From NCBI GenBank assembly GCA_021768085.1, contig JAETOJ010000036.1, forward strand, positions 1-37,921: a stretch of DNA of 37,921 bases. The letters run 5' to 3'. The translations under genes and the position numbers were made by a program. The notes beneath the pieces are model-generated. The model ran no database searches. It was not told the DNA's origin and saw only the letters and a list, made by a program, of their open reading frames with translations. Origin of the DNA: Bacillota bacterium (lineage in GTDB: Bacteria > Bacillota > Clostridia > Oscillospirales > Oscillospiraceae). Shown here piece after piece: positions 3,539-36,438 of the stretch; the first letter of the stretch is position 1, and each line of letters opens with the position of its first letter.

Positions 3539-3567
3539 AGTTGCGCCTCCTTTTGCTATATGCCGAC

Positions 3568-3596
3568 ATTTTAGCACATAGCAGAGGAAAAAGCAA
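3568..3596 (-). promoter_or_regulatory. Promoter of the Nmad3-like operon
   Basis: Minus-strand TTGCTT, a 17-base spacer and TAAAAT, about 30 bases upstream of the ATG at 3538. Confidence 0.5.
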
Positions 3597-3690
3597 CACA
3601 GAGCATAAGTTAATAATGCACCCTGTGGATTACAGACCGCCTATGCAATTAGTATCATTTGCATATACTATCAGCGTTGGAGGATACCAC

Positions 3691-4023
3691 ATGGAACATC
3701 AGGCATTGGGAAAGCGGATTCGTGAGGAACGGTTAAAGCTGAATCTCACACAGGAAAAGCTGGCAGAGGACGTGAACCTCTCCACGGCCTACATAGGCCA
3801 GATTGAACGGGGAGAACGCAGTCTGACGCTGGATAATCTGATAGCCGTGGTCAATCGGCTGGGGGTATCGGTTGACTATCTTCTTTCTGATTCCGTAGTT
3901 CCGGGAGACGATGGACAGTACCGCCTATGGAGCCAGCTCATGAACGGCAGGACTGAGGATGAAAAGGCTCTTGCGGTAAACATGGTCAAGCTCATGTTCG
4001 GCTATCTGGACGAACAATCTTGA
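3691..4023 (+). CDS. XRE-family transcriptional regulator
   Basis: A 110-residue protein started at the ATG at 3691, with TTGGAGG 7 bases upstream; an open frame begins at 3541 but has no RBS. Residues ~8-62 are a classic Cro/C1 helix-turn-helix (LTQEKLAEDVNLSTAYIGQIERG, ending VDYLLS). The short C-terminal helix may dimerise. It diverges from the Nmad3-like operon, and an inverted repeat AGTAT...ATACT (3649-3668) overlaps a likely -10 in the shared intergenic space, making it a plausible local repressor. This wiring is inferred. Confidence 0.8.
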   Translation: MEHQALGKRIREERLKLNLTQEKLAEDVNLSTAYIGQIERGERSLTLDNLIAVVNRLGVSVDYLLSDSVVPGDDGQYRLWSQLMNGRTEDEKALAVNMVKLMFGYLDEQS

Positions 4024-4354: not shown

Positions 4355-5479
4355 TTAAACTTTTCGGGGCTGATACCTGGCTTTGAGAATAACATATTCG
4401 GTGTCATAGGCCAAGCTGCTCCATCGCTCATAGGTTCTTCTTACGGGCTGTTCATCATAAGTCAAATAGTCTCTTAGCTCTTGCGCAGTATAATCCGCTG
4501 TGTCCAGTGCCTTAGTAGTTCCGTAGAATACCCCATAGGGCTGAATCTGGCGAACACCTTTCAAAGCAAGGAACAGGCATTTGAAGTTTTCATAGGTCAT
4601 GGGGGTGTTATCCTCTGAACACGTCTTGGTAACATATCCAAACAGGCTTTCAAGGTCATCGGGCTGACATTTATCAACTACACAGCTATATCGGCCAAGG
4701 CCGCTGTCTTCTCCAAGGATATTATCAGCAGTGAGCCGTTTCCCGTTCACCAGTAGCCACCACATACGCTGGATAATGATTTCAAAGTCAGAGAACAGCC
4801 TGTCTTCATGGCCCTTCGAGCGGGAGAACTCATTGAAAATATGCTTATGCTCCAAAGCGTTACCGTTCCCCAAAACGGCGACAACATGGAAGTGCGGGTG
4901 ATAGCAGTCCTCTTTATAGGTGATTTCCAGAGTGCGGATACAGCCTTGGAAGCCATACTGCAAGAGGTCCATATCCCGCACTTTTATGTTTCCATCCAAA
5001 TAGTTTTTGAGCTTCTTAAAGCAACGGGACATATGGTGTACTGTCGCTCTCAAATCATCCCCACAACAGTTAGGCACTGTCAGCGTTATATGATACAAGG
5101 AATCCCGAAACGGCTCCAGATAGGGAAGGTAGCGGCTTTTACGCACCATTTTATTCGCCTGGTTGCAGTTATGGCAGAACTTGTCTTTACATCGACAGGT
5201 TCCCTCTAACACTTTCACCCGGTTAGCTTCATAGGTTACGGTCCGCCAGAATTGATTACAAGTCCCAATATGGTTGGACCGTCTGCCTATCGACCGAATC
5301 ATGGCAGTAGGTAACTCTTTATTTCTTACAGCCACATAGGCCATACGCCAGTAGTACATCTGCACCCGGTCATTCATAGCGATGTTCCGATAGACACGCT
5401 TCATATGAGGTCGTGTCACCTCTTTCACCATCACAGCCGGTTCCATAATCCCATAATCCATATTGCTGTCCATACTCAT
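4355..5479 (-). CDS. Rolling-circle replication initiator (HUH Rep)
   Basis: A 374-residue protein of the Rep_1 plasmid/ICE replication initiator type. Residues 194-198 give the metal-binding HUH motif HPHFH, and FGYVTKT around Y282 fits the catalytic tyrosine that nicks and covalently holds the origin strand. A Cys cluster CRCKDKFCHNC (residues 95-105) could form a zinc site, common in this family. AGGAGAATTT precedes the ATG. The product would nick the element's origin after excision, letting it copy itself as a circle. It lies at the right end of the left accessory region with a structured AT-rich stretch downstream. Confidence 0.85.
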   Translation of the reverse strand: MSMDSNMDYGIMEPAVMVKEVTRPHMKRVYRNIAMNDRVQMYYWRMAYVAVRNKELPTAMIRSIGRRSNHIGTCNQFWRTVTYEANRVKVLEGTCRCKDKFCHNCNQANKMVRKSRYLPYLEPFRDSLYHITLTVPNCCGDDLRATVHHMSRCFKKLKNYLDGNIKVRDMDLLQYGFQGCIRTLEITYKEDCYHPHFHVVAVLGNGNALEHKHIFNEFSRSKGHEDRLFSDFEIIIQRMWWLLVNGKRLTADNILGEDSGLGRYSCVVDKCQPDDLESLFGYVTKTCSEDNTPMTYENFKCLFLALKGVRQIQPYGVFYGTTKALDTADYTAQELRDYLTYDEQPVRRTYERWSSLAYDTEYVILKARYQPRKV

Positions 5480-5670
5480 AAATTCTCCTGTTCTCTTGGC
5501 TTATTACGCTTAGTTCTATTACAATAGATAATATCAGTGTGACACGGAAAATGCTTGGCGTTCCCTGACAGAGAAGCTACTATAAATAAAGCGCCATTCG
5601 CCATTTCCTATGTGGGGCCGCTGGGACAAGTCCGGCCCCAGGTTGTACCCTTACCTTTACCCTTAACGCC

Positions 5671-5701
5671 TTGACGCAGAGCGGAATTTATGGTATATAA
5701 T
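5671..5701 (+). promoter_or_regulatory. Strong sigma-A-type promoter of a tiny transcription unit
   Basis: TTGACG at 5671 with TATATA at 5694 (17-base spacer), overlapping TATAAT at 5696. Just upstream, TGGGGCCG (5613-5620) and CGGCCCCA (5633-5640) form an 8-bp inverted repeat. Confidence 0.65.
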
Positions 5702-5757
5702 GGACAAGGAACAACACCGATTTCTGAAATAATGATACACAACGGGAGGCTATGAAT

Positions 5758-5799
5758 ATGGTAGGATTTGGGTTTAGAATGTTCCGCTTCAACGTCTAA
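5758..5799 (+). CDS. 13-codon small ORF or leader peptide
   Basis: ATG at 5758 to TAA at 5797 encodes MVGFGFRMFRFNV. GGGAGG lies 8 bases upstream of this ATG; an in-frame ATG at 5752 would add two residues but is too close to the RBS. Four of 13 residues are Phe. The ORF sits between a strong promoter and a perfect terminator, so it is either a stand-alone microprotein gene or the leader peptide of an attenuator upstream of the yerC-like operon. No alternative antiterminator pairing for the terminator's 5' arm was found by eye. I do not recognise the peptide. Confidence 0.45.
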   Translation: MVGFGFRMFRFNV

Positions 5800-5815
5800 C
5801 CCCCATGCCTGCACC

Positions 5816-5847
5816 AGGGGCCGTCGCTTTTGCGGCGGTCCCTTTTT
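5816..5847 (+). terminator. Rho-independent terminator between small ORF and yerC-like operon
   Basis: A 12-bp stem (AGGGGCCGTCGC pairing with GCGGCGGTCCCT), TTTT loop, then a run of T. It points rightward and the reverse direction lacks a T-run, so it ends the transcript that starts at about 5708. Confidence 0.85.
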
Positions 5848-20170: not shown

Positions 20171-22504
20171 ATGGAGATACTTGCCCCCGCAGGAAGCCCC
20201 GAGGCCCTGCGCGCCGCGGTGTGCGCAGGGGCGGACGCGGTCTACCTGGGCTTTGGCCAATTTAACGCCCGCCGGGGCGCCCGGAACTTTACCCGGGACG
20301 AATTCGCCTCGGCGGTTTCCTACTGCCATCTTCGAGGCGTGAAGGTGTACCTCACCCTCAACACCCTGTGCTCCGACCGGGAACTGCCAGACGCGGTGGA
20401 CTGCGCCGTCCAGGCCTCCAAGCTGGGGGCGGACGCGGTGCTGGTACAGGATCTGGGCCTGGTGCGCTCACTGCGGCAGGCCGCCCCCGATCTGCCCCTC
20501 CACGCCTCCACCCAGATGTCCCTCCACAGCCTGGACGGCGTGAAGCAGGCCGCCGACCTGGGTGTCACCCGGGCTGTGCTGGCCCGGGAGCTGTCCCGGA
20601 CGGACATCGCCTACATCTGTGAGCGCTCCCCCATCGAGATCGAGGTGTTCGTCCACGGGGCCCTGTGTATGTGCTACTCCGGCCAGTGCTTTCTGTCCTC
20701 CGTCATCGGCGGGCGCAGTGGCAACCGGGGTATGTGCGCCCAGCCCTGCCGCCTGCCCTACGGCTGGGGGGATCTGGCCGACGGCTACCCCCTGTCGCTG
20801 AAGGATATGTCGCTGGCGGGCCATTTGCAGGAGCTCCAGGACATGGGGGTGGCCAGCGCCAAAATCGAGGGGCGGATGAAACGGCCCGAATACGTCTATA
20901 TTGTCACGAAGGTATACGCCGACGCCCTCCGGGAGGGCCGGGAGCCCACCGCGGACGAGCTGCGCCGGCTGGAGCAGGCCTTCTCCCGGCAGGGCTTTAC
21001 CGACGGCTACTACCTGGGCCAGACCGGCCCGGATATGTTCGGCGTGCGGGAGGAGACCAAGCCCCCCCGGGAGCTGTTCTCCCACGCCAGGGCGGCCTAT
21101 GAGAAGGGGGAAGGCCCCGGCGTGCCAGTGAAGTTCTACGCCATGATCCGGCCCGGGGAGCCCATCCAGGTGGGAGTGGAGGACAGTGAGGGCCGGGTGG
21201 CCACCGCCGCCGGCAAGATCCCCGAGCCCGCCCGCCGCCGTCCCACCTCCCAGGCGGAGGTGGAGGCCCAGCTGGGCAAGACCGGGGGCACCCCCTTCAC
21301 CGCCGCCGGGATGCGCACCCTGGTGGAGGGCGGGCTGAACGTCCCCCTTTCGGCGGTGAACGCCCTGCGGCGGCAGGTGCTGGACGAGCTGTCACGCCAG
21401 CGCACCGCTCTGCCCCAGCGCCGCCACGGGGAGTACAAGGTGGGGGCCCGGTACGAGAACCGCCGGGAGGAGCCGGAGCTGTACGTCTCCCTGCGCCACG
21501 CGGGGCAGCTCACCTTTGAGCTGGTGAAGGCCAAGCCCGCCCTGATCACCCTCCCCGCCGACGAGATCGCCGCCCACCCGGACGACGCAGCGGGGGCCAT
21601 CCAGCGGGGCGTAACCGTGGCGGCGGTGCTGCCCCGGATCTGCTTCGACCGGGAGCTGCCCAGGCTCCGGGAGGACTTGGCCGCCTGCCGGGAGATCGGC
21701 GTCACCGACGTCTACGTGGGCAATCTGGGGCTGGTGCCCCTGTGCAAGGAGCTGGGCTTCAACCTCCGGGGGGACTTCGGCCTCCAGGTGTTCAACAGCC
21801 AGGGGCTGAAGGAGTACAAGCGGCTGGGCTTCCAATCCCTCACCGCCTCCTTCGAGCTGAAGCTGGCCCAGATCCGGGATCTCAGCAAGGCGGTGGACAC
21901 CGAGATCATCGGCTACGGCCGCCTGCCCCTGATGATCACGGAGAACTGCGCGGTGAAGAACCAGTCGGGCCAGTGCACCTGCGGCAATGTGAACCAGCTG
22001 ATTGACCGGAAGGGCGTCCGCTTCCCGGTGGAGAAGGCCTGGGGCTGCCGCAACGAGCTGCTGAACGCCAACAAGATCTTCCTGGCGGACAAGCCGGAGG
22101 ACTGGAAAAAGGCGGGATTGCGGGCCGTCCGGCTGCTGTTCACCACGGAGAACGGCGTGCGTGGAGTAGGGGCGGGCGATCTGCGCCCCCAGCCCCATGG
22201 CCGCGCGGAACAGGGCCTGGTCGTGGAGCTCCTCCAGCTCCAGGCTCAAATTGGTAAGTACCTCCAGCAATTCCCGGCCGCCCTCGCCGAGCCTGAGCTC
22301 AATTTCATCTTCTATGTCGGACAGGCGGGCTTGCAAGTCTTTTGCTTTCCCGCTGTCTTTATCCTGTTGACTGGCCCATTCATCTACCATATAATAGAGC
22401 TCGTTTATCAGTTCTGTCATAGCAAAACCTCCGATTTTTCGATATTTACATTTTTATTATACTACCGATTTATAAATAGTCAAGAGGCTTTATGGAAATT
22501 TTAG
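20171..22504 (+). CDS. Peptidase U32 family protein with replaced C-terminus
   Basis: A 777-codon ORF. Residues 1 to ~660 are a U32 family protein of the two-part type (RlhA/TrhP-like): MEILAPAGSPEALRAAVCAGADAVYLG, HGALCMCYSGQCFLSS with the Cys set, MCAQPCRLPY, then CAVKNQSGQCTCG and AWGCRNELLNA. Relatives hydroxylate RNA bases. After LLFTTEN (about position 22150) the family sequence stops and the frame reads through the antisense of a DUF6809-like gene, giving a hydrophobic, low-GC, foreign tail up to a stop at 22504 inside the next gene. The usual ~35-residue end of the family is missing, so activity may be impaired. Confidence 0.8.
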   Translation: MEILAPAGSPEALRAAVCAGADAVYLGFGQFNARRGARNFTRDEFASAVSYCHLRGVKVYLTLNTLCSDRELPDAVDCAVQASKLGADAVLVQDLGLVRSLRQAAPDLPLHASTQMSLHSLDGVKQAADLGVTRAVLARELSRTDIAYICERSPIEIEVFVHGALCMCYSGQCFLSSVIGGRSGNRGMCAQPCRLPYGWGDLADGYPLSLKDMSLAGHLQELQDMGVASAKIEGRMKRPEYVYIVTKVYADALREGREPTADELRRLEQAFSRQGFTDGYYLGQTGPDMFGVREETKPPRELFSHARAAYEKGEGPGVPVKFYAMIRPGEPIQVGVEDSEGRVATAAGKIPEPARRRPTSQAEVEAQLGKTGGTPFTAAGMRTLVEGGLNVPLSAVNALRRQVLDELSRQRTALPQRRHGEYKVGARYENRREEPELYVSLRHAGQLTFELVKAKPALITLPADEIAAHPDDAAGAIQRGVTVAAVLPRICFDRELPRLREDLAACREIGVTDVYVGNLGLVPLCKELGFNLRGDFGLQVFNSQGLKEYKRLGFQSLTASFELKLAQIRDLSKAVDTEIIGYGRLPLMITENCAVKNQSGQCTCGNVNQLIDRKGVRFPVEKAWGCRNELLNANKIFLADKPEDWKKAGLRAVRLLFTTENGVRGVGAGDLRPQPHGRAEQGLVVELLQLQAQIGKYLQQFPAALAEPELNFIFYVGQAGLQVFCFPAVFILLTGPFIYHIIELVYQFCHSKTSDFSIFTFLLYYRFINSQEALWKF

Positions 22505-22705
22505 CACAACGTATCAAGGAACAACGCCTTGAAAACAAATTAAAACAAACAGAAGTTGCCGATGCTATTGGGGTCGCCATCAGCACCTATTGCAGTTATG
22601 AATACGGCCAACGGGAGCCCGGTGCCACCGCAATTGCAAAATTGGCACGGCTTTTCCATGTATCCACTGACTACCTGCTGGGCGTAAACGAGCCAGCGCC
22701 GGGTG
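22155..22705. mobile_element. Inserted cassette: DUF6809-like gene and XRE gene, no recombinase
   Basis: The segment between the end of U32 homology and the first Maf residue holds two divergent genes with mostly lower-GC sequence: a DUF6809-like ORF (minus) and an XRE domain (plus), with an AT-rich control region at 22421-22491 containing two copies of CCGATTT. It truncates the U32 gene and replaces the start of maf. No integrase, transposase or terminal repeat was found, so the mechanism of arrival is unknown. Boundaries are approximate, set by where family homology ends. Confidence 0.55.
22160..22420 (-). pseudogene. DUF6809-like protein, 3' end lost
   Basis: From an ATG at 22420 with GGAGG eight bases upstream, about 87 codons encode a helical protein beginning MTELINELYYMVDEW and reaching EELHDQALFRAAMGLGAQIA, which aligns with the gene at 35825 (LEDLYYG..., ENFILGFRLGVRIMAE). 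After that the frame continues open, antisense to the U32 gene, to a stop at 21392, so the native stop was lost at the junction. Such small helical proteins are common in clostridial integrative elements. Their function is unknown. It is divergent from the XRE domain next door. Confidence 0.55.
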
Positions 22706-23310
22706 GAGTGGGGAAAATCATCCTCGCCTCCAAGTCTCCCCGCCGCCGGGAGCTGCTGAAGCAGATGGGCATTGAGGACTTCAAGGTCACCGCCCCCAAC
22801 GTGGACGAGTCCGTGGAACCCGGCCTCCCCCCTGCCGACATTGTGGAGCAGCTGTCCCTGCGTAAGGCCACGGCGGCGGCCAACCGGGCCGGTCCCAACG
22901 ATCTGATCATCGCCGCCGACACGGTGGTGGCCCTGGACGGCAACGTGCTGGGCAAGCCCCGGGACGAGGAGGACGCCTTCGCCATGCTGTCCGCCCTGTC
23001 CGGGCGGGAGCACCACGTCTATACCGGCGTGACGGTACTGCGGGGCGGCGAGCGCGTCACCCGGCACGAGGAGACCGCCGTGGCCTTCCGGGATATAACG
23101 CCGGAGGAGATCCGGGCCTACATCGCCACCGGCGAGCCCATGGACAAGGCGGGGGCCTACGGCATCCAGGGCCTGGGGGCCCTGCTGGTGTCCGGCATCC
23201 GGGGGGACTACTGCAACGTGGTGGGGCTGCCGGTGTTTCGGCTGGGCCGGATGCTGTCCGGCCTGGGGGTCGATTTGCTGGGGCGCAATCAGGAACAGGC
23301 AATGCCGTGA
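22492..23310 (+). CDS. maf: XRE DNA-binding domain fused to Maf pyrophosphatase
   Basis: A 272-residue fusion. Residues 1-66 are a Cro/C1 helix-turn-helix (LKQTEVADAIGVAISTYCSYEYG... VDYLLG-like end TDYLLGVNE). From ~74, KIILASKSPRRRELL starts a complete Maf/YceF domain to the end (NVDESV, LSLRKA, IIAADTVVAL, GKP, GREHHVYTGV, DKAGAYGIQGLGALLV), so the nucleotide pyrophosphatase with dTTP/UTP or modified-nucleotide preference should be active. The AGAGG upstream of 22492 drives the fusion; a GTG at 22708 could also restart Maf alone. Maf affects septum formation in Bacillus. The fusion arises from the inserted cassette. Confidence 0.8.
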   Translation: MEILAQRIKEQRLENKLKQTEVADAIGVAISTYCSYEYGQREPGATAIAKLARLFHVSTDYLLGVNEPAPGGVGKIILASKSPRRRELLKQMGIEDFKVTAPNVDESVEPGLPPADIVEQLSLRKATAAANRAGPNDLIIAADTVVALDGNVLGKPRDEEDAFAMLSALSGREHHVYTGVTVLRGGERVTRHEETAVAFRDITPEEIRAYIATGEPMDKAGAYGIQGLGALLVSGIRGDYCNVVGLPVFRLGRMLSGLGVDLLGRNQEQAMP

Positions 23311-33144: not shown

Positions 33145-34653
33145 TCACGTGAGAAGATCCTTTTTTCTCGTCCCCCTCGCTTTCTTTTGTACTGCCAGCG
33201 CCATGGCCGCTTCCCATTTCCCCTCAGCGGCCAAATGCTTTGCCTCTGCAACCTCTGCTTTCGTCTGCCGGATCAGCCCGGCCAGTTTTTCCTCGCATTT
33301 GGCCTTGGTGTTGGCGTAGATATTGCGGGAGTGGATTTTTCCATCGGGCCACTTGGGGGAGAATTTTCCTTCCCAGAGATGGTCGTTGATCTGCGTCACA
33401 CAGCCTGTCCCCGGCTTGCGGATTTTGCCCTTGTAGGGTTCAAACGGAACCTTTGAGGGTAGGTCGGACGTTTTGGTGGGTAAACCCTCGCCGTGGCCGT
33501 TCGGCGGCTCACACTTGCCAATTCCCCGGTCAATTTTTGCCGCCGCCGTCTGCCGCATGGCGTCGGTGACGTGCGTGTAGACATTCAGCGTAGTCTTGGC
33601 GGACACGTGTCCAATGATGGTGGACAGGGTTTTCACGTCCATTCCATTTTCCAGGGCCGTGGTCACGAACAGGTGGCGCAGGTCGTGGAAGCGGACTTTT
33701 CTGCACCCCGCGTGTTTTAAGATGGTCTGGAGGCGTTTCCGAACAGTGGCCGGGTCAAGGGGCGAGTCCTCCTTTGCCGGGGAGGGGAACATCCAGCGGG
33801 AATTGATTTGCCCGTGGTATTCCTCAAGCACACCCGCCAGAGAGTGCGGTAGGACGATGGTGCGCAGGGCGGCTTTCGTCTTAGGCGCAGATATAACCAA
33901 TTCCCCATTTGCCCGATAAACCTGGCGCTGGATGCGAAGCTCCCCGGTGTTGAAGTCCAGATCGTCCCATTGGAGGGCCAACACCTCACCCCGGCGCAGA
34001 CCCGTGGCCAGCTCCAACAGGAACAGTTCGAAATACCCTTCCTCCTTGGCCTGGATGAGAAACCTCTGCATCTCCTCCCGCGACAGCACCTTCATCTCCT
34101 TGGTGTTCTGATGCGGGAGCTTGCAGTCTGTGGCAGGGTTGATACGAATGAGGCCATCCTGTACTGCCCGGTCCAGCGCCGTCCTGATCCGGGTGTGGCA
34201 AGACCACACAGTACGGTCTGAAACGCCCTCCCCGTAGAGTTCGGCGCGGATCAATCGACCATTCTTTTTCAACTTGGTATAAAATTGCTGGATTTCATTT
34301 GTGCCCAATTCAGACAGCGGAATTGCCCCCAGCGCGGGGATGATATGCTTGTAGATGGCGTTTTCGTACCCGGCCTGGGTAGTGGGCCGCAACTTGGGTT
34401 TAGAGTAGTTTTGATACCAAAAGTCCAGCCATTCACCGAAGGTCATATCCGGCTGGAGCTTCTCTGTTGGCTGCCCGGAACAGGTTTCCTGCAAAGCTTT
34501 CAGCTTATCCAGACACGCCGTTTTTGTCTTTGCCAGCACGTTTTTGGTAATGGGCAGGTTCTTCTCGTCGTAGCCCACCACTACCCGGCCCTCCCAGCGG
34601 CCGTCCTTTCTCAGGTGGATGCTTCCTTCGCCCCGTTTTCTGCGTTTTGCCAC
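33145..34653 (-). CDS. Tyrosine integrase with an extra C-terminal AP2-like domain
   Basis: A 502-residue Tn916-type recombinase that joins element and chromosome ends. It begins at a GTG (34653) with AAGGAG eight bases upstream, inside the end of the previous integrase. An N-terminal AP2-like arm-binding domain (residues 8-45, GEGSIHLRKDGRWEG), core-binding domain (70-180) and catalytic domain follow, with R220 (TGLRRGE), H323xxR326 (HDLRH), H349 (IGHVS) and Y359 (NVYTH). About 120 additional residues follow the catalytic Tyr. At 415-465 they repeat the AP2-like pattern (TQINDHLWEGKF...KAKCEEKLAGL), implying duplicated arm binding. All catalytic residues are intact. Confidence 0.9.
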   Translation of the reverse strand: MAKRRKRGEGSIHLRKDGRWEGRVVVGYDEKNLPITKNVLAKTKTACLDKLKALQETCSGQPTEKLQPDMTFGEWLDFWYQNYSKPKLRPTTQAGYENAIYKHIIPALGAIPLSELGTNEIQQFYTKLKKNGRLIRAELYGEGVSDRTVWSCHTRIRTALDRAVQDGLIRINPATDCKLPHQNTKEMKVLSREEMQRFLIQAKEEGYFELFLLELATGLRRGEVLALQWDDLDFNTGELRIQRQVYRANGELVISAPKTKAALRTIVLPHSLAGVLEEYHGQINSRWMFPSPAKEDSPLDPATVRKRLQTILKHAGCRKVRFHDLRHLFVTTALENGMDVKTLSTIIGHVSAKTTLNVYTHVTDAMRQTAAAKIDRGIGKCEPPNGHGEGLPTKTSDLPSKVPFEPYKGKIRKPGTGCVTQINDHLWEGKFSPKWPDGKIHSRNIYANTKAKCEEKLAGLIRQTKAEVAEAKHLAAEGKWEAAMALAVQKKARGTRKKDLLT

Positions 34654-35822
34654 GGTTTCAGCTCCTTTCCGAAGATATCCTCCATGAAGTTCCCCACAAT
34701 GGCTGCCGCCTGCTTCTGCATATCGCCGGTGACGTGTGTATAGGTATTCAGCGTGAACGCGGCGTCGGTGTGACCCAGGATGCCCGAGAGGGTTTTGGCG
34801 TCCACCCCGCTGGCCAGTGCATGGGTGGCGAAGGTGTGACGCAGTCCGTGGAAGGGGATACTCTGCGTGATCCCGGCCTCACGTAGCAGGGATTTCAGCC
34901 GCCGGTAGGCCGCGTCGGGGGAGATGGGCTGCTCCGGCTTGAACGGATTGGGGAATATCCACTTGCCGGGAAACGTTTCCTGGCGCACCCGGAGCATATC
35001 CGCTGTGCTCTGGGGGAGCAGAATCTTGCGCCGTCCTCGCCCGGTTTTCGTTTCGCCAGTCTCAAATCCGCCGCCTGACATTCTGTGCAAGGTGCGGCAG
35101 ATCTGCAATGTACCCGTTTTAGGATCAAAGTCGCGCCACTGGAGGGCGCAGATCTCACCCCGGCGCAGACCGGTGGTGAGTTCAGTGTAGAAGAAGTCAT
35201 GCCAGAGCGTGTCGGCTTGGATGGCTTCCATGAATTTGTCCAGCTCTCTGTCAGTGAGGACACGTTTGGCCGAGCAGTCTGCTTTCGGCAGCGTCAGGCC
35301 CTCGGCAGGGTTGCGTGGGATGATGTGGGCTTTCACAGCATCCCCGAAGGCGCGGTGGAGCATGGTGTGGATACGTCGGATGGTGGCGGCGGATAAGGCG
35401 CGGCCATGCTCCGGGTGTTCATGTATCCGACCCTCTTTTTTCAGCTTGGTGTACAACCGCTGGATATCCGCTGGGGTGATGGAATTCATTTTCTTGTTCC
35501 CCAGACGTGGCTTGATATACTGCTCGGCATACATCCGATAACCGCTCATGGTGCTTTCCCGCAAGCGCGGGGCAGCGTACTCGTCCAGCCAGCGATCCAG
35601 CCATTGGGCCAACGTCATCCGGCTGTCCTCACACAGCTCCACATCCCGGAAGACCTCAATATTTTGGTGAAGCTTGGGCAGAAGGGCTTTCTGCGTGGGC
35701 GCAAGGACGTATTGGAAGATGGGATCGCCATCCTCCTTGTGTCCCACCACGATGCGGCCCTCCCAACGGCCATCCTCTCGCTTGCGTACCATACCGTCGC
35801 CGGACGGCCTGCGCTTTGCCAT
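34611..35822 (-). CDS. Tyrosine integrase, first of a tandem pair
   Basis: A 403-residue Tn916-type recombinase. AP2-like N-terminal domain (GMVRKREDGRWEGRIVVG), core-binding domain, and catalytic residues R220 (TGLRRGE), H325xxR328 (HGLRH), H351 (LGHTD) and Y361 (NTYTH). The coordinates of the catalytic residues almost match those of the next integrase, which suggests duplication. Its last 43 bases overlap the start of the next gene, giving coupled expression. It starts 3 bases after the DUF6809-like stop, so all three form one operon read toward tRNA-Val. Confidence 0.92.
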   Translation of the reverse strand: MAKRRPSGDGMVRKREDGRWEGRIVVGHKEDGDPIFQYVLAPTQKALLPKLHQNIEVFRDVELCEDSRMTLAQWLDRWLDEYAAPRLRESTMSGYRMYAEQYIKPRLGNKKMNSITPADIQRLYTKLKKEGRIHEHPEHGRALSAATIRRIHTMLHRAFGDAVKAHIIPRNPAEGLTLPKADCSAKRVLTDRELDKFMEAIQADTLWHDFFYTELTTGLRRGEICALQWRDFDPKTGTLQICRTLHRMSGGGFETGETKTGRGRRKILLPQSTADMLRVRQETFPGKWIFPNPFKPEQPISPDAAYRRLKSLLREAGITQSIPFHGLRHTFATHALASGVDAKTLSGILGHTDAAFTLNTYTHVTGDMQKQAAAIVGNFMEDIFGKELKPWQNAENGAKEAST

Positions 35823-35824
35823 GG

Positions 35825-36121
35825 TCAGTCACCTCCAGTTCTAATATCGCCGTCGTTGTCATCCATGCACTCGGCCATGATCCGAACGCCCAGCCGAAAG
35901 CCCAGGATGAAGTTTTCCATAGCGGTGATACTGTCAATTTCCTGCTGTGATTCTATGAGTTTCTCCAAAACCGCTTGCCCGGCTTCATCAAGCCGCTCCG
36001 TGAGTTGGTTTTCGAAACGGGCCACCCGGTCTGTTGCCCGCCTCAACTCCGAATTGGGGGCCATGTCCTGCGCATTGGGTGTGATGTTGCCGTAGTAGAG
36101 ATCTTCTAAAGTGTTTCGCAT
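35825..36121 (-). CDS. DUF6809-like small helical protein
   Basis: A 98-residue protein, started at MRNTLEDLYYG (36121, AGGAGGCGAGAATC upstream). It is predicted all-helical: LEDLYYGNITP, a coiled region (ATDRVARFENQLTERLDEAGQAVLEKL) and ENFILGFRLGVRIMAEC at the end. The pattern agrees with what I recall as DUF6809, a family frequent in clostridial integrative elements; no function is known to me. It has a homologue in the cassette at 22160-22420. It leads an operon with two integrases, so it may be involved in integration control. Confidence 0.7.
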   Translation of the reverse strand: MRNTLEDLYYGNITPNAQDMAPNSELRRATDRVARFENQLTERLDEAGQAVLEKLIESQQEIDSITAMENFILGFRLGVRIMAECMDDNDGDIRTGGD

Positions 36122-36438
36122 GATTCTCGCCTCCTGTAGCGACACACCATACCACAGGTTGGTGGAAATAGCCATGGGCATCGGCGATAGTTATCAGAAC
36201 AGACACATATTCTTGACGGTGCGTGGCAGGGCTTTTCTTTGGTAACACTGGTGCAATTCACAGCCGCTCACAGCGACCCACAAAGGGGCCAACACCGCGC
36301 CTCACTGGCGCAAGGTGTACGGAATGCCCCCTGCTCTGTGGGATGGGCACAAACTGCCACACAGGGGCTAACACGGGGGAAACAACTTGGGCGGCGCTCC
36401 GCAGGTGTGGAACGCCGCCCGCTTTTGCTTGAGAACGC
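36122..36438. other. Non-coding region with inverted repeats
   Basis: No convincing gene. It contains GGGCGGCGCTCC / GGAACGCCGCCC (36388-36420), followed by CTTTTG on the plus strand, and the imperfect CCCCTG...CCACACAGGGG pair (36326-36368). These may be a terminator for the neighbouring amidase-like gene, or structured DNA of the element such as an origin. Neither is proved. Confidence 0.4.

Follow-up and report, generated by a model that had tools for sequence, protein, structure and literature searches.

The stretch of DNA analyzed here (hereafter the window) is contig C39, 37,921 nucleotides long, of a 2.94 Mb Oscillospiraceae genome that belongs to a group of uncultured bacteria from the gut and is assembled in 110 contigs. 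Between a U32 peptidase-family gene and maf it carries a small gene of the DUF6809 family, which diverges from an XRE-type helix-turn-helix (HTH) domain fused in frame to a complete Maf nucleotide pyrophosphatase domain. On the strength of sequence comparisons we consider it moderately probable that this XRE-Maf fusion represses the DUF6809 gene and that the module they form is exchanged by homologous recombination. An earlier sequence-only reading of the window had described the DUF6809/XRE block at 22155–22705 and its fusion to Maf, and both are real and correctly placed: the domains have Pfam matches and XRE and Maf lie in one open reading frame (ORF). Each of the domains is known; an XRE-Maf protein and an XRE-DUF6809 unit are not described in the literature searched, which included few subscription journals, and the same search returned no paper on DUF6809.

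The XRE part of the fusion matches phage repressor families (phrog_8, E 4e-19) and the Xre structure of ICEBs1 (7t8i), while the Maf part matches the PDB entry 4heb (E 1.7e-43). Maf proteins of the YhdE type are distinguished by an S-R-E-K-D-K and R-T-Q signature, according to the accessible part of PMC3899018. Using the residue list of that paper, and mapping by motif and by alignment to the PDB match, we located all nine signature residues in the fusion (S82, R85, E106, K125, D143 and K155, together with R84, T144 and Q226), each of them invariant in an 18-row alignment. The predicted model of the fusion consists of two folded domains with low confidence around residues 66–75. All eight genomes that carry the fusion lack an XRE stop codon, so that XRE reads into Maf in frame. 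In at least five of them the usual maf start is missing too: these five fusions have no ATG, GTG or TTG within nine codons before the Maf domain, and in three of the five (G018, G016 and G054) a GGAGG word is kept and the start codon position of the non-carriers, two codons before an Ile, is occupied by GCG, ACG or GCA. We therefore infer that in at least five of the eight carriers repressor and pyrophosphatase are translated jointly, as one protein. That the two genes are neighbors that simply became joined, with an XRE part that is irrelevant and that Maf tolerates, is very unlikely. The linkers do vary in length and letters between species, as this explanation would allow, but the XRE frame is open in all eight carriers under amino-acid constraint (ratio of amino-acid-changing to synonymous differences, pN/pS, of 0.08–0.50, with pS near saturation), and promoter spacers follow XRE over 32 pairs, as described below.

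Of 42 genomes from the genus, 41 have a Maf match; XRE and Maf share one frame in eight (G000, which is the window's genome, G044, G018, G016, G017, G015, G054 and G055) and Maf stands alone in 33. A profile search of the same 42 genomes found a maf-adjoining DUF6809 of the window's subtype in the same eight. The block is thus not private to this strain, and a recent insertion in it is not supported. An assembly chimera, for which the 83-bp U32 deletion found in the window assembly only could speak, is excluded for the fusion by its presence in eight genomes of differently named assemblies, and as an account of the locus it is practically out of the question. The expectation of empty sites in relatives was confirmed: in 19 of 21 readable non-carrier loci about 16–219 bases separate the U32 stop from the maf start, many of them with a Shine-Dalgarno-like word, and the remaining two loci have 447 and 1145 bases. 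The 1145-base gap, in G042 (L091 4158–5579), contains a different, unfused DUF6809-XRE pair; a long palindrome surrounds its promoter. From the U32 stop to the Maf domain there are 531–853 bases in seven carriers, the window being unreadable in this way. By eye, the motif GTGGAGTRGGG occurs at both block borders in the window and G044; in the remaining carriers with both ends read it was not seen at the right-hand one; no systematic repeat search was made.

In the genomes sampled, XRE-Maf was not met outside the genus. In the family, 230 of 250 genomes have a Maf match, and among the matches listed from them there is no real fusion besides the window; at E 1e-70 no other fusion appeared among 391 genomes of the class, a weak test because of the strict cut-off. 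A scan of named genomes gave, in the best 80 of 126 loci, seven that match both domains, all of them carriers. In L102 (Lawsonibacter sp., 4660–5846), where the gene neighborhood is a different one, an unfused maf is immediately preceded by a DUF6809-like gene and an XRE gene, and the XRE and this maf share a reading frame.

Comparison with the sister genome G044 (locus L085), which is 95–97% identical to the window genome, isolates the repressor and its operator region as a separate piece. Only about 270 bp, made up of the operator region and XRE, are foreign between the two (Table 1); elsewhere, 60-base windows in U32, DUF6809 and Maf are mostly 90–100% identical, with a few in Maf at 83–88%. 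The synonymous difference pS is 0.725 in XRE, 0.146 in Maf and 0.090 in DUF6809. Because pS is high in XRE and low in the two flanking genes, the segment fits a replacement by a foreign allele and not fast change. A tree of XRE (63 columns) places the sister, but not the window, with G016 and G054.

The DUF6809 start and the XRE-Maf ORF are 71 bases apart. We scanned this region and its counterparts in a wider set of 40 XRE-DUF6809 pairs, which is defined below; a strict scan covered all 40 pairs and a laxer one the 36 pairs with a spacing of up to 130 bases. In the strict scan, 35 of 40 intergenic regions have a near-consensus promoter directed towards DUF6809 (mean of shuffles 1.3, maximum 4); in the laxer scan all 36 have one (mean 6.0, maximum 11). 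Promoters directed towards XRE were found in 0 of 40 intergenic regions in the strict scan, and in 16 of 36 when the laxer scan reached into the DUF6809 frame (mean 4.8, maximum 11). XRE-directed sites with at most one mismatch number 10 of 36, all of them with the window's DUF6809 subtype and the window included, and five of the eight fused loci have such a site at a like place. As the XRE-directed site overlaps conserved DUF6809 codons, it may be a by-product of protein coding. For the 32 pairs with a promoter call and an intergenic region below 125 bases (without L102), similarity of the DUF6809 promoter spacer weakly follows that of XRE (Mantel r 0.139, p 0.004; partial p 0.007), and over these 32 pairs spacer and DUF6809 show no association after correction for XRE (p 0.53). 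Because the promoters point towards DUF6809 and their spacers follow XRE, XRE most likely binds the spacer and silences DUF6809.

We propose the following mechanism. A resident module of about 0.5 kb, composed of divergent DUF6809 and XRE genes, fills the gap between U32 and maf, and the fusion would bind the operator-like sites through its XRE part. One of these sites falls within the DUF6809 promoter spacer, and we infer DNA binding and repression there: XRE-Maf would keep DUF6809 off and would hinder or tune its own message. The module, which lacks a recombinase, would be exchanged between species by homologous recombination via the conserved flanks, with repressor and operators replaceable as one piece.

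Trees of the flanking genes bear on the last of these steps. They were built from 30 Maf loci (of the 41 Maf-bearing genomes), 29 in the maf tree and 22 in the U32 tree, with all eight carriers in both. The U32 tree rejects a single clade of the eight fused alleles (p 3e-42), its starred branches forcing at least four changes, and so does the maf tree (p 0.0099), with at least two. The fused state has accordingly changed several times, in keeping with the earlier idea of a mobile unit, and the smaller number of changes on the maf tree than on the U32 tree fits homologous recombination with maf attached. Inspection by eye also revealed a palindromic intergenic repeat, ACTTTCTCTC...GAGAGAAAGT, at about 750–790 of L017 and about 4930–4960 of L091, which could give homology for movement.

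Several observations weigh against repression by XRE-Maf and exchange of the module. Repeated loss would explain the trees as well as exchange does, and no near donor of the window XRE was found in the genus, the best other match having 69% identity. The association measured by the Mantel test is weak; only 14 of the 40 intergenic regions have a palindrome better than those of shuffles, and that of the window is not among them (p 0.66). Three of the eight fusions keep a possible start near Maf (GTG in the window and G044, ATG in G015), none of the three with any of the tested Shine-Dalgarno words. Moreover, the window copy may be decaying, because both its U32 and its DUF6809 gene are altered by the 83-bp deletion.

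The sequence-only reading had the cassette replacing the last part of U32, which is not borne out: the complete end, ...RGLYYRDVE*, is kept in the seven other carriers, and the 83-bp absence is unique to the window among the eight. Judged from these alignments, the loss of the U32 3' end is an event separate from the cassette, either a deletion or an assembly fault. It puts U32 out of frame, costs the gene its final codons and removes the DUF6809 stop, so that in the window the DUF6809 frame runs on to 21392 (ORF 21392–22420); intact DUF6809 in the sister (L078) ends ...ARPYSTSR. The 8-base word CGTGGAGT is found at both ends of the 83 bp in the sister.

XRE-DUF6809 pairs recur at other places, as a mobile unit had been expected to do. 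We examined 74 loci, drawn from part of the DUF6809 matches, all 14 maf-type DUF6809 matches, some XRE matches and a few others. No pair was present in 32 of them and 42 held 44 pairs, from which four doubly represented places were dropped; the final set, 39 pairs in 13 genomes of the genus plus L102, is not a full census. Six further loci, five of them outside the genus, also gave pairs, and all six have a promoter towards DUF6809. Searching 150 genomes of the family with a DUF6809 profile of another paired subtype (E 1e-8) gave matches in only 5. Neighboring genes were picked by a GC3 rule and examples were named by NCBIfam, some partial frames falling below the family cut-off. The sites named in this way are U32|maf, argS|rimP, pth|mfd, ileS, topA|trmFO, IF-2|rbfA, thiI and ilvE, and further rsmG, mnmG, rpoD, miaB and a Mur ligase gene; the topA|trmFO site is also occupied in another genus (G085). 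The pairs mostly adjoin translation and tRNA genes, an apparent bias, and in G000 all six pairs seen adjoin U32 or a gene of tRNA or ribosome function. Where the next gene could be read (the gene to the right of XRE was not cleanly read in L204, L219, L220, L237 and L238), XRE is mostly co-directional with it; convergent neighbors are thiI in G016 and G018 and rpoD in G083. Site labels cluster on the trees of 39 pairs (L102 left out), with 12 changes for DUF6809 and 14 for XRE against a shuffled mean of 26.6 for both, and thus most copies stay at their own site. Three dissimilar XREs occur at the rimP site, two of which group with XREs of other sites, and the DUF6809 of the unfused maf-site pair in G042 is nearest to that at rimP in G005.

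These surroundings also suit a guard or addiction module, in which DUF6809 would be toxic or growth-stopping and XRE would be a transcriptional antidote tied to housekeeping genes. At the U32|maf site XRE-Maf would then be an antidote within the guarded enzyme, and DUF6809 would be released once the gene group was lost or ceased to be transcribed. We regard this as possible though somewhat unlikely. The near-consensus DUF6809 promoters of 35 of 40 intergenic regions agree with it, as do the positions between housekeeping genes with XRE mostly reading with the downstream gene. So does a locus beside topA in G142, a member of another genus (L261 5540–7328), where one recognized DUF6809 is accompanied by three different consecutive XREs and by a fourth close to them, as expected of spare antidotes. 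Some of these XREs are similar to lone ones that occupy the site elsewhere. On the other side, DUF6809, whose predicted model has three helices, has no match in the PADLOC defence library and no usable fold match from structure comparison of the model; the maf-type DUF6809 profile matched only 8 of 42 genomes of the genus; the next gene is convergent at the thiI and rpoD sites just named; and 10 of 36 pairs, including the window's, carry a separate promoter-like site for XRE. Type II toxin-antitoxin genes form one operon and here DUF6809 and XRE are divergent. CreTA guards CRISPR-Cas, according to the part of PMC9458426 available; the likeness, by analogy only, is a guard that needs a host system for its silencing, and unlike the present pairs CreTA works through RNA and is bound up with CRISPR. 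An unlikely extension is that such guards form a whole class located among housekeeping genes. There DUF6809, on its near-consensus promoter, would be a shut-down protein, and the XRE supply would be tied to guarded gene groups that serve tRNA modification, the maturation of ribosomes and nucleotide house-cleaning; repressor and operator would be co-exchanged so that parallel modules within a genome do not cross-silence, and XRE-Maf, with the guard inside the enzyme it guards, would be the end point.

NrtR-type regulators combine an HTH domain with a fold of the nucleotide-hydrolase type in a single polypeptide. By analogy, Maf could be the sensor and XRE the output of a regulator through which canonical or modified UTP/dTTP would set the expression of DUF6809 and maf. 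This appears quite unlikely. The complete Maf catalytic signature and the association of XRE with the promoter spacer would suit such a sensor, and Nudix-related regulators exist (NrtR; accessible part of PMC8865458). However, between window and sister the XRE part is exchanged while Maf stays, and XRE occurs without Maf at pair sites other than the fused one, so that sensing is not needed for the module. The fusion resembles NrtR-type proteins in having a hydrolase-type fold and an HTH in one chain; unlike in those, sensing is only a candidate here, and the domains are unrelated.

Other known arrangements share single features with the locus. The fusion keeps the signature of the YhdE subfamily. 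Human ASMTL is a Maf fused to a methyltransferase, as given in the accessible part of PMC3899018, and is thus a Maf likewise linked covalently to another domain, whereas the partner here is an N-terminal XRE with an adjoining operator-like region. XRE-controlled toxin-antitoxin and phage-type modules are similar in that a small gene with a strong promoter faces an XRE repressor; they differ in that the partner here is a DUF6809 gene between housekeeping genes, that repressor and operator region are co-exchanged, and that one version is fused to the downstream enzyme.

A descent of the block from elements with tandem integrases was considered and rejected. The window holds, at 33145–36181, two tandem phage-type integrases and a DUF6809 gene without XRE; genes of this XRE-less kind recur in the genus. 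With the window's integrases as query (E 1e-4), no integrase-like ORF was found in the 48 pair loci (206 kb; stretches of about 1.5–5 kb around each pair, the four double places included), other recombinase types not being searched; among the 27 loci whose DUF6809 lacks an XRE (109 kb; those of the 32 pairless loci with a DUF6809 match), 17 had one close by. In a tree of 67 DUF6809 proteins, paired and unpaired kinds separate with 3 changes (shuffled mean 21.7), and carriers share the site across species. Possession of a PF20648 gene by both is the one point in common, and a cassette carried by or left from such elements is highly improbable. The second DUF6809 at 35825, which had suggested the link, does belong to the same Pfam family; it has no adjoining XRE and groups with XRE-less, mostly integrase-side copies. 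Of the cassette reading as a whole, then, the recombinase-less small unit (there is no recombinase frame in 22155–22705), the empty sites, the recurrence and the several changes of state stand, and the recent insertion, the integrase link and the replacement of the U32 end are not supported.

The sister species, with differing repressor/operator regions and a near-identical partner gene and fused enzyme, constitute a natural experiment, in which it can be tested directly how specific the repressors are, what DUF6809 does and whether Maf may act as a sensor. The locus also suggests a way in which small recombinase-free regulatory units become established between housekeeping genes.

Table 1. 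Features of the U32–maf region of the window
Feature	Position	Strand	Remarks
U32 peptidase-family gene (TrhP-like)	20171–22159	+	Native frame up to deletion point; PF01136, E 5.5e-79; aligns with sister to 22159
Deletion point	22159–22160		83 bp of sister missing; blastn of window against L085: pieces stop at 22159/4584 and resume at 22160/4668
DUF6809 gene	22157–22420	-	PF20648, 34.7 bits (gathering score 27); start at 22420; divergent from XRE
XRE-directed promoter-like site, TTGACT-17-TATAAT	22367–22395	+	Inside DUF6809 coding region
Segment foreign to sister genome (operator region and XRE)	22421–22690		58–78% identity in 60-base windows
Left operator-like site, CCGATTTTTCGATA	22431–22444		Chosen by eye; similar in G015, other words in other genomes
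DUF6809-directed promoter-like site, TTGACT-16-TATAAT	22456–22483	-	Promoter scans
Right operator-like site, CCGATTTATAAATAG	22465–22479		Chosen by eye; within DUF6809 promoter spacer
XRE-Maf fusion ORF	22492–23310	+	XRE domain in frame with complete Maf domain
XRE (HTH_3) domain	22492–22686	+	PF01381, 47.7 bits (cut-off 23), E 1.5e-12; folded in predicted model
Linker	22687–22713	+	Low model confidence; contains GTG codon; none of five tested Shine-Dalgarno words within 60 nt
Maf domain	22714–23310	+	PF02545, 223.4 bits (cut-off 27), E 2.5e-66; full YhdE subfamily signature

Two more XRE-type frames lie in the window at 327–1067 and 3541–4020, and the DUF6809 profile found no DUF6809 gene adjoining them. 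The top NCBIfam match of the U32 gene is TrhP, a tRNA uridine hydroxylase, at 184 bits, which is under the family cut-off of 534.

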